From contig CAKZRR010000058.1 of assembly GCA_937146805.1 (NCBI GenBank), positions 1 through 36,103 on the forward strand: a stretch of 36,103 nucleotides of DNA, written 5' to 3'. Of this stretch, positions 32,498-36,103 are shown piece after piece (the first letter of the stretch is position 1; each line of letters opens with the position of its first letter). The DNA is from an uncultured Owenweeksia sp. Lineage in GTDB: Bacteria > Bacteroidota > Bacteroidia > Flavobacteriales > Schleiferiaceae. The position numbers and the translations under genes were made by a program. Under the pieces are notes generated by a model. It was not told where the DNA came from, did not search any database, and saw nothing but the letters and a program-made list of their open reading frames with translations.

Positions 32498-32638
32498 CTT
32501 AAGTCGTTAAATGAGAGAGTAAGAGTAGGGTGAAGGTATAGTAGGCAAGAAAGAGAATTGATCAATAATACCCCATTAGAAAGTTGGACTATCTTAGTCC
32601 TTTGGAAAAACGAAAAGCTCCATGTACTTTACACAGCA

Positions 32639-33154
32639 ATGAAAAAGGTTAAACGGGTATATTTTTTAATTGGGATGTTGGCAACGTTGGCTTCATGTAA
32701 AGAGCCTACTTATATACCAAGGGCCAATAAAGGTGAGCTTGTTAAAGATTCATTTTACTTTTACAGAGATACCTTAAATTTTCATCATGTTCCACTTCCT
32801 GATTATATTGTAAATAGCGTTGATACGATCATTCAAAACCATCCACTTGAAGTAAATTACTATTGGAGTATTACACTCACAAAGGAAAAAGGCAGATTAA
32901 CATATGAGATTATGCCTTTTTATTGTGAGATGTTTATGCTTTATTTAGATGATTCCCATGAACCTTATAAAGCCAGTGTCGTAAATAGCCAAAAGGTTTT
33001 TATTTATGACGAGAAGGATTTACTGCCGATTGATTCGGAACTACCTTATATAAGGATCCATAACCCGGGGAAAATGACCGAATTTTATAAAACATCTAGG
33101 CCTTCATGGATATTTCAAAAAGATAGGAAAGGTGTTGTGTCCTATGTTGATTAG
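32639..33154 (+). CDS. Predicted lipoprotein of unknown function
   Basis: 171-aa product starting MKKVKRVYFLIGMLATLASCKEP, a good Bacteroidota lipoprotein signal with lipobox LASC (Cys20). The frame is open further upstream to a TTG at 32558, but that would bury the signal peptide 27 residues in, so the ATG at 32639 is preferred. The mature part has no recognised domain; it is rich in Tyr and charged residues. No family could be named. Periplasmic immunity proteins of conflict systems often look like this, but no toxin gene is adjacent. Confidence 0.75.
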   Translation: MKKVKRVYFLIGMLATLASCKEPTYIPRANKGELVKDSFYFYRDTLNFHHVPLPDYIVNSVDTIIQNHPLEVNYYWSITLTKEKGRLTYEIMPFYCEMFMLYLDDSHEPYKASVVNSQKVFIYDEKDLLPIDSELPYIRIHNPGKMTEFYKTSRPSWIFQKDRKGVVSYVD

Positions 33155-33211: not shown

Positions 33212-33763
33212 ATGATAAAAATAATTGTAACCACCACTTTGGGTCTGTTATTATTAATGAATAATGATGCGTTGTTCGAAAATAATTGTAGCGGTTTTAA
33301 TTCTAGCTCATGGTATGATTATCAGTGTTTAGCAATCTCTAGTGCGCAAACAGCTGATAAAGAATTTTTAAATGACAGCCTTAATTTTACGGTTGTAAAG
33401 ACGGTTGAATTGGACGACACCTTGCAATTTGCCGTGGCTTTTATGAAAAAGGAGTTTTTAACGCATCTGTTGCTTGGGCTAGAGGAAGATAGCATGTTAG
33501 GTTTTTCCTCTTACGATACATTTGAGGTTTTAATTATAGGAGAGCCAAATAGTAAAAAAAATTACAAAAAAATTAATGAGATAAGTCAATTGACGGATTA
33601 CATTAAAGCCAAGCAGGTAATGAGTACGCCTCCCAAAGATTCAGTTGTTTCATATCGGATTTGGGAGGTTGTAGCCTTGCATCAAACAGTTTTTATTCAT
33701 GATATTTATAGAGGTAAGCTTGTGGGTAAGTATGCTGTAGGAAACACAACTATTTTTAGATAG
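33212..33763 (+). CDS. Small exported protein of unknown function
   Basis: 183-aa product with an N-terminal hydrophobic segment (IIVTTTLGLLLLM, residues 4-16) likely to be a signal peptide. The mature protein has two early cysteines (about residues 26 and 39) that could form a disulfide. No domain was recognised. It follows the lipoprotein gene by 57 bp on the same strand and may share its transcript. Its AT-rich composition is like that of its neighbours in this right-hand accessory stretch. Confidence 0.65.
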   Translation: MIKIIVTTTLGLLLLMNNDALFENNCSGFNSSSWYDYQCLAISSAQTADKEFLNDSLNFTVVKTVELDDTLQFAVAFMKKEFLTHLLLGLEEDSMLGFSSYDTFEVLIIGEPNSKKNYKKINEISQLTDYIKAKQVMSTPPKDSVVSYRIWEVVALHQTVFIHDIYRGKLVGKYAVGNTTIFR

Positions 33764-34575: not shown

Positions 34576-35168
34576 ATGAGTAGAGCTAGCTTTATTAGCT
34601 ATCCATTTTTACCCGAAGATGAAGCCATTGGCCAAGGAGACGGCCCCTCGCCTGAGGGAGAAAGTTATGGCAGCAAGTAGTTGGGGGTATCACAAAATTT
34701 GCAATCGGTGTAAGTGGATTTGGTAAAATGGCGGGCACTGATTATATTGTGGATGATTTGTTTGAACGGATAAGCATAGTAGTGGTAGATGATAAGAATC
34801 CTTTTAATGATGCCACTACATTTAACGATCAAACCGTTGAGGATATGTTAGATGTTAGTATAGCTGGGGCTTTAATCAGAATAGAGCGAAACTTATCTAT
34901 TGATGAGTAGGCAATTTTTGCGGCTCATGAATTAGGACATGCCTTGTATTCAATTAGAAATCCTTTTAAGGATTTTAAATGGTCTGAGATTGGAAACCCT
35001 CATCATCCAAACGGAGCTGTACATGATAAGTATAATCCTAGTGGACCTATGGCTGATCTCTTTGAGTCAGGAACTAAAGCTTTTCTAAAAAATAATTGGT
35101 ATGCCATTTTATCTTGTTTTATTCTATATTATAATCAATCAGGTAGGCGGACTTTCGTCATTAATTGA
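34576..35168 (+). pseudogene. Broken RHS-type toxin tail with zinc metalloprotease motif HELGH
   Basis: Three pieces read as one protein. Piece 1, from the ATG at 34576, ends at a TAG (34678-34680). Restoring one missing G near 34677 would join its SYGSK to VVGGITKF in the next frame. Piece 2 runs to SIDE and a TAG at 34908-34910. Piece 3 continues in the same frame with AIFAAHELGHALYS, whose HExxH zinc motif is at 34926-34940, and later HHPNGAVHDKYNPSG, which could supply a third ligand. Such zincin domains are common as C-terminal toxins of RHS proteins in Bacteroidota. No RHS repeats precede it, so it is an orphan, inactivated tail. Confidence 0.65.
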
Positions 35169-35724
35169 GCAGGTTCATCAAGCTGTAGAAGCTTATAATG
35201 TGGAGAAATTTTTTTTAGAGCACTCAGATGAGGATGATTATCTCATCGGAGGATATAGTAATTATGATAGAGCTTTAGTTCCCTCTGGTTGTAGATTGAG
35301 CCTCGATTTTACGCCTTTGGATTCTCTGTCATTTCCTTTAAAGGGGTATAAACTTTATCATATAATTTACAATCCAAATAAATTGAATTGCGGAGAAAGA
35401 ATTCAAGTAACGTCTGTTATGGATGGGTCACGACCAAAAAAACAGTTGTTTTTAGTGGCTTACAATTACGATCGTGAACGAGTTTTATATATAAGCGGTG
35501 GTTTTAAAAAAAGCCGTATTTCCGGATTTTTTGATTTTAATAATAAGCAGGAAGTAAATACTTATTTAAAGTTAAAACTTTATAATTTGAAAATTAAAAA
35601 TTGGAAGTTTGAAGGTGAGAATAACCGAGTTATTAAATATTCGGGGTTTAGCCAATCTTTAGTGAGAACTATTAAAATTGAAATTTCGCAAAAGGACTTT
35701 GACAAGATTAAGGTATCTGAATAG
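35101..35724 (+). CDS. Membrane-anchored protein, candidate immunity partner of the RHS tail
   Basis: 207-aa product with an N-terminal hydrophobic segment (FYLVLFYIII, residues 3-12) that would act as signal or anchor. The mature part is rich in Tyr, Lys and Asn, with no recognised domain. Its ATG lies inside the last 68 bases of the broken HELGH toxin frame, the place where immunity genes sit in RHS loci, and it is intact although the toxin is not. The immunity role is inferred from position only; it could instead be an unrelated orphan gene, and the exact start is uncertain because no other Met lies nearby. Confidence 0.55.
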   Translation: MPFYLVLFYIIINQVGGLSSLIEQVHQAVEAYNVEKFFLEHSDEDDYLIGGYSNYDRALVPSGCRLSLDFTPLDSLSFPLKGYKLYHIIYNPNKLNCGERIQVTSVMDGSRPKKQLFLVAYNYDRERVLYISGGFKKSRISGFFDFNNKQEVNTYLKLKLYNLKIKNWKFEGENNRVIKYSGFSQSLVRTIKIEISQKDFDKIKVSE

Positions 35725-35813
35725 CTTTTCCAACAATCTAATATGTTGAGGCGTGTTAGTATTTATAACCACAAATCTTAAAACACTTTTAGTATTAGTT
35801 GTTATTGAAAACG

Positions 35814-36056
35814 ATGATGTTTTTTGATTATTTAGGTCATAACGAGTATATTACCGATATGGCAGGTGAAGCTTACCAATACTTTTGGTACAGCCCCTGG
35901 GGCGAAAGTTTAGTGGACGGTCACAAACACAAATCCGCACAATCTAATTTTTGCGATGGCCCTTACCGGTTTAATGGTAAGGAACTGGATGCGGAAACAA
36001 GTAATTACTATTATGGAGTGAGGTATTGTAAGCTCCCCATTTTTAGTACGGTTTAA
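35814..36056 (+). pseudogene. Orphan RHS repeat-associated core fragment
   Basis: An 80-aa open stretch from the ATG at 35814. It reads DYLGHNEYITDMAGEAYQYF, then YSPWGES, FNGKELDAETSNYYYGVRY and KLPIFSTV-stop. These are the landmarks of the RHS repeat-associated core of Bacteroidota, where DHLGS..YITD, FGE, FNGKELDEETG.YYYGARYY and LSVDPL are usual. The large N-terminal repeat region is absent. The end has lost residues after RY and stops just before the expected variable tail. It is a displaced core remnant, not a functional gene. Confidence 0.8.
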
Positions 36057-36103
36057 AATTATACAATTAATTTATTATTCAAATCTTGTTGGCCGCAGTG
36101 AAG

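Follow-up and report, generated by a model that had tools for sequence, protein, structure and literature searches.

The closest described systems to the locus reported here are the Rhs C-terminal displacement arrays of Enterobacteriaceae (PMC2935791, PMC8125069). According to passages of Jackson et al. 2009, dissociated tips with core fragments lie downstream of intact rhs genes, the cores within a locus or array are identical, and the core has its boundary at a motif that ends in DPXG (PMC2935791). For bee gut bacteria, a second study reports orphaned 3′ ends that stand in arrays together with immunity genes, as well as some genomes with orphan toxin domains only (PMC8125069).

The stretch of DNA analysed here (36,103 nucleotides, hereafter the window) is the entire contig C58 of a 58-contig, 3.16 Mb draft genome (G000) of an uncultured Owenweeksia sp. 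As far as the passages above describe displacement arrays, the right-hand end of the window resembles them in having a tail and an immunity gene without a full Rhs gene and a core fragment behind these on the same strand, and similar layouts are found in the relatives G029 and G038. It differs from them in that the tail is broken and has no core piece of its own, the window contains no intact Rhs gene, the core is cut by an IS element, and the draft holds no second DNA-level copy of the core and thus no intact gene with an identical one. The features are as follows.

34579–34674, plus strand: open piece in another frame, a possible start of the tail relic by continuity only
34680–34907, plus strand: tail relic, part 1, ending at an in-frame TAG at 34908
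34911–35165, plus strand: tail relic, part 2, with HELGH and HDKYNPSGPMAD; homologues in G029, G058 and G218
35101–35724, plus strand: candidate immunity gene, an open frame of 207 aa with a signal-peptide-like start (by eye)
35826–36026, plus strand: Rhs core fragment, TIGR03696 positions 1–37 of 76 over 35889–36026, with tblastn matches in relatives
36027–36103, minus strand: right end of an IS3-family element that exits the contig; its genes would read leftward

The initial annotation gave the order correctly: tail, immunity gene and core fragment follow one another on the plus strand. We consider this to be probably a decaying Rhs locus, in which a displaced tail and an open immunity gene are followed by the head of a further core that was cut by the insertion of an IS3-family element.

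The core fragment and the IS3-family end

The presence of an Rhs core fragment at the end of the window, as initially annotated, is borne out by both profile and translated searches. The fragment lies inside an open frame (35799–36056) that scores 28.5 bits (E 1.6e-6) against the NCBIfam model TIGR03696, aligning to positions 1–37 of 76. The score falls under the cut-off of 32.5 bits because only half of the TIGR03696 domain is present, as expected of a truncated member with an incomplete domain, and a genome-wide core search recovers the same fragment with 27.9 bits at 35889–36026 (again model positions 1–37). When the fragment was compared to Rhs loci by tblastn, 16 matches were obtained in six other genomes (G002, G006, G017, G021, G038 and G062) with identities of 34–63% overall: 13 of these fall at 45–63%, while the remaining three, at 34–38%, are broken by inserts. 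Judged from these alignments, the similarity to the Rhs loci of relatives is far beyond chance.

The limits of the fragment are narrower than the 35814–36056 first proposed. Of the 19 plus-strand core matches to the Rhs loci of relatives, 13 begin at 35826, and the right-hand limits of the 19 fall at 36026 in 11, at 36038 in one and at 36053 in seven (a minus-strand match was dropped as a shadow match). The eight matches that overrun the junction, by 12–27 bases, are taken as chance extensions, since the IS-derived CKLPIFSTV resembles the native YDPKISVWL. Within the proposed extent, therefore, 35826–36026 is core, and the sequence from 36027 onward, which reads TGTAAGCTCCCCATTTTTAGTACGG, is IS. 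In relatives, about 40 further residues (YDPKISVWLSVDPL...DPDG) stand between the point at which the fragment ends and the tail. A DPxG-type core end is absent from the window, as the IS begins at 36027, before any YDP or DPxG, and it is because the IS3-family element begins at this base that the core breaks off at model position 37 of 76.

The initial annotation had the core stopping right where a variable tail would begin, but its end lies half-way through the domain and at an IS terminus. A genuine core/tail boundary, in an array that swaps tails at this core, would agree with the one-strand order, with the core-tail modules that stand in line in relatives and with the core remnant that follows the immunity gene in G029. 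Against it stand the broken tail and the absence from the draft of any other DNA match to the core, and the boundary itself is refuted by the IS end; we consider this version very improbable. The IS terminus explains where the core stops, and the element would have been inserted at 36026/36027.

The evidence for the IS end comes from the draft itself and from related complete elements. The frame at 35799–36056 takes its final nine codons and its stop from the last 77 bases of the window, and an exact copy of these bases is found once more in the draft, at one end of contig C52. The contig ends C57:66884–66960, C19:42387–42461 and C9:85807–85883 are left ends of this IS type, where a matching terminal repeat leads into ATGAGAAAGAG. 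The draft thus has five IS ends, the right end on two contigs and the left end on three, and its inverted terminal repeats are on separate contigs; related complete elements have both. All five contigs stop 75–77 bases inside the IS termini, which would fit a repeat breaking an assembly with words of about 77; the element is present more than once in the genome, and the window probably ends 77 bases into it because the assembler could not get across. The 4-bp flanks of the five ends do not pair, and the terminal 12-mer of the IS has a single occurrence in the window, at 36027.

In G006, the same left end leads into a transposase orfA, of which the first 37 residues are present and match HTH_Tnp_1 at 24.9 bits (cut-off 24.1). 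A terminal-repeat scan of genome contigs gave at least 111 stretches and at least 18 distinct elements with both ends, 1256–1287 bp in length (20 rows, with two elements found from both ends), while the IS end patterns were not found in viral contigs. Base 36027 of the window aligns with the terminal base in all six complete elements compared (Bacteroidota, 1264–1283 bp), three of which come from one Ferruginibacter isolate. The termini were located by a pattern built from the draft's own ends, and the exact end base rests also on direct repeats: among the matches listed, a 4-bp direct repeat stands at the exact termini of four of the 14 complete elements with both flanks (L098, L123, L142 and L188) and is absent from the other ten. 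In the one element tested, L098, orfB carries rve and scores 195.4 bits as an IS3-family transposase (cut-off 160), and orfA carries HTH_Tnp_1. The element thus resembles the IS3 family (NCBIfam NF033516) in its terminal repeats starting with TG, in the orfA (HTH_Tnp_1) and orfB (rve) of a complete relative and in relatives of 1256–1287 bp; it is unlike it in that the window has 77 right-end bases only and the draft's own element is nowhere seen whole.

Least probable of all is an assembly chimera, with an erroneous joining of the core fragment to the IS end. The join does lie at a repeat, at a contig end and in a draft of 58 contigs, yet it falls at the IS terminus, and C58 and C52 each break off exactly 77 bases inside the repeated sequence, which is what a correct assembler stop would be expected to give. 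The initial annotation had proposed looking beyond 36103 for another tail/immunity pair or a full RHS gene; the sequence at that edge is IS, and a continuation past it was not found in the assembly.

Two of the contigs with IS ends carry other frames at these ends. On C52 (1–883, minus strand), the IS3-type right end that also closes the window truncates the frame of an IS110-family (RNA-guided) transposase, so that one IS apparently lies within another; the first 1577 bases of this contig have no match in Rfam. On C9, a frame of 82 aa runs into the IS left end at the contig end.

The toxin tail relic and its immunity gene

A TAG at 34908 breaks the single frame of the tail relic (34680–35165), and near 34675 the frame changes. 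The match to the tail profile starts at 34881 and runs through this TAG, while no homologue was detected for the relic upstream of 34881. The open piece in front of the frame change (34579–34674) matches only itself among the Rhs loci compared. As no core was detected ahead of the tail relic, before 34579 in the window, the tail is without a core in front and the module is thus truncated on its 5′ side too.

The relatives of the tail sit at the C-terminal ends of Rhs proteins in G029 (57% identity over 49 aa), G058 (52% over 44 aa) and G218 (32% over 65 aa). Those on contig C8 of G029 and C47 of G058 share with the window the HExGH...HDxxNPSGxxA tail, but in these two the tail frame is open and joined to an Rhs core in front of it, and the window tail has neither property. 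All four aligned tails have HExGH and an aligned H further on, and in three of them this H is followed by D. By this motif, part 2 of the tail appears to be zinc-metallopeptidase-like. The G218 tail gives a sub-threshold match to Reprolysin_5 over the HExGH stretch (11.9 bits against a cut-off of 27, E 0.26). The window tail pieces and the G029 protein have no match in Pfam-A, the G058 tail protein shows a weak RHS repeat only in the Pfam scan, and no NCBIfam model matches the window tail pieces.

The family of related tails is small. A search of 395 genomes of the class returned the window's own tail, the Rhs protein of G218 (E 5.2e-4) and a 343-aa frame without a core in G436 (E 7.0e-4), the last of which is taken as chance. 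Among 88 genomes of the family, the tail profile found its own sequence, G029, G058 and, at E 0.009, an unrelated enzyme-like frame in G032 that is likewise taken as chance. No match to the tail was found in plasmids and phages at E 1e-5, and a scan of genome contigs with a two-row tail alignment gave 142 pattern-matching stretches, none of which was confirmed. Against solved structures, the tail profile had one match, at E 0.12, which is not trusted.

Directly behind the homologous Rhs tail in G029 lies a gene whose product is similar to that of 35101–35724 (34% identity over 99 aa, E 3e-16, pairwise). The gene at 35101–35724, initially annotated as a possible immunity gene, is therefore supported by its position and by one homologue, and on these two grounds it is likely the cognate immunity gene of the tail. 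The gene that follows the G058 tail, unlike its counterpart in G029, is without detectable similarity to that of the window, and the same negative result was obtained for the gene behind the G218 tail. A search with the immunity protein in the 395 class genomes returned only its own sequence, and the 14 matches to solved structures, at E 0.023 or worse, are none of them trusted.

The immunity gene may still protect against the toxin of a relative. More tentatively, and with more doubt than confidence, we suggest that the tail belongs to an Rhs toxin-tail family that lies over no Pfam-A cut-off, is metallopeptidase-like by its HExGH...HDxxNPSGxxA pattern and shares an immunity family at least between G029 and the window, and that the open immunity gene was kept as an orphan shield against relatives while the toxin decayed.

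Two further frames of the window, 32636–33154 and 33212–33763, have lipoprotein- or signal-like starts by eye. Neither has a match in the other 87 genomes of the family, and both could be candidates for further orphan immunity genes.

Related layouts and Rhs material elsewhere in the genome

The order seen in the window, with a related toxin, recurs in G029, where a joined core and tail is followed by the immunity gene and then, about 190 bases on, by a core remnant that is short and broken in frame. Rows of core modules on one strand are seen in G038, three on C6 and two on C31 (spacing 1.8–2.4 kb) and two more, 3.4 kb apart, on C11. These arrangements in G029 and G038 support tail displacement as a process in the family. 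The passages on the 2009 model lead one to expect identical cores (PMC2935791), whereas DNA identity is 71–91% among the cores of eight G038 modules and 61–69% among those of G021. Some of the cores on C6 and C11 of G038 (L082, L085) contain extra stretches, NNLSRLYGG... and LARTAKLGGF, that look like small repeated inserts.

In the genome of the window itself, the comparison is less favourable to displacement. No second DNA-level copy of the window core was found in the draft, though a draft may miss repeats, and the contig runs unbroken through the core, which suggests that the core is not repeated in the genome. At E 0.001, the only other Rhs core is at C9:53477–53722; as it is not listed in a protein search with the window core at E 1, it is counted as highly divergent. 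Protein matches to the core on C36 (E 0.16) and C17 (E 0.24) are weak and were not counted. The initial annotation proposed to compare the fragment at the nucleotide level with complete RHS genes of the genome, and named a lack of similarity to any RHS core there as an outcome that would refute its reading; no such similarity was found, with the same caveat for a draft. The recombination at a core sequence that it envisaged thus has no direct evidence in the draft, and the absence of any trace of a recombination donor or acceptor is a counterpoint to displacement.

The rest of the interrupted core was sought behind the IS left ends, and no continuation was seen on C57, C19 or C9 (flanks by eye, with frames listed for C9); a contig with this remainder was not found in the assembly.

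The C9 core (L079:2150–3738, minus strand) belongs to a frame of 301 aa with core model positions 1–75 and a different tail; this Rhs frame is followed by a lipoprotein-like frame of 227 aa, and the two look like another orphan tail/immunity pair. At C1:29966–30052, away from the core matches, a frame of 541 aa has an RHS-repeat match at 22.3 bits (Pfam cut-off 22). In the window, two large proteins carry Por secretion tails, as fits Bacteroidota.

The tail without a core in front, the divergent core on C9 and the lack of a DNA-level core copy make a real rival of one further explanation: that a single Rhs locus was broken by IS-mediated rearrangement, with the core derived from the tail's own gene or from elsewhere and moved by deletion, inversion or recombination between IS3 copies rather than by tail displacement. 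The five own IS ends without paired 4-bp flanks are as expected if copies recombined, although unpaired flanks are also expected when a draft loses short contigs. Nevertheless, a same-strand core also lies behind the immunity gene in G029, where the IS terminal 12-mer, with one mismatch allowed, is absent from the 13.6 kb searched around the locus. In the window, moreover, the left end of the fragment showed no DNA with copies elsewhere in the genome, and the 12-mer occurs at the right-hand junction only. We therefore regard such a rearrangement as unlikely.

Reading of the locus

The best fit is still that the head of one module stands behind the leftover tail and immunity gene of another. 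The core match, the IS end, the homology of the tail and immunity gene and the broken state of the tail are observed directly, and the steps that connect them may be sketched as follows. An orphan toxin tail would have lost its core and its reading frame while its immunity gene stayed open. The core fragment would be the head of another displaced module, made by tail displacement at the core, into which the IS3-family element was later inserted at 36026/36027; the assembler would then have stopped 77 bases into this element. The orphan tail/immunity cassettes of the initial annotation thus hold in part: they agree with the layouts of G029 and G038, whereas the IS-made end and the tail without a core count against them. 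The locus is of a known kind, C-terminal displacement of rhs, and is a degraded member of it, damaged by an IS.

An IS insertion at a contig end is what gives the core the appearance of stopping at its tail boundary. This corrects a tempting misreading and serves as a warning that such contig-end stops in draft genomes should not be counted as recombination points. The small Rhs tail family seen in G029, G058 and G218 also gains a further member through this locus, one whose tail is broken while its immunity gene is open.
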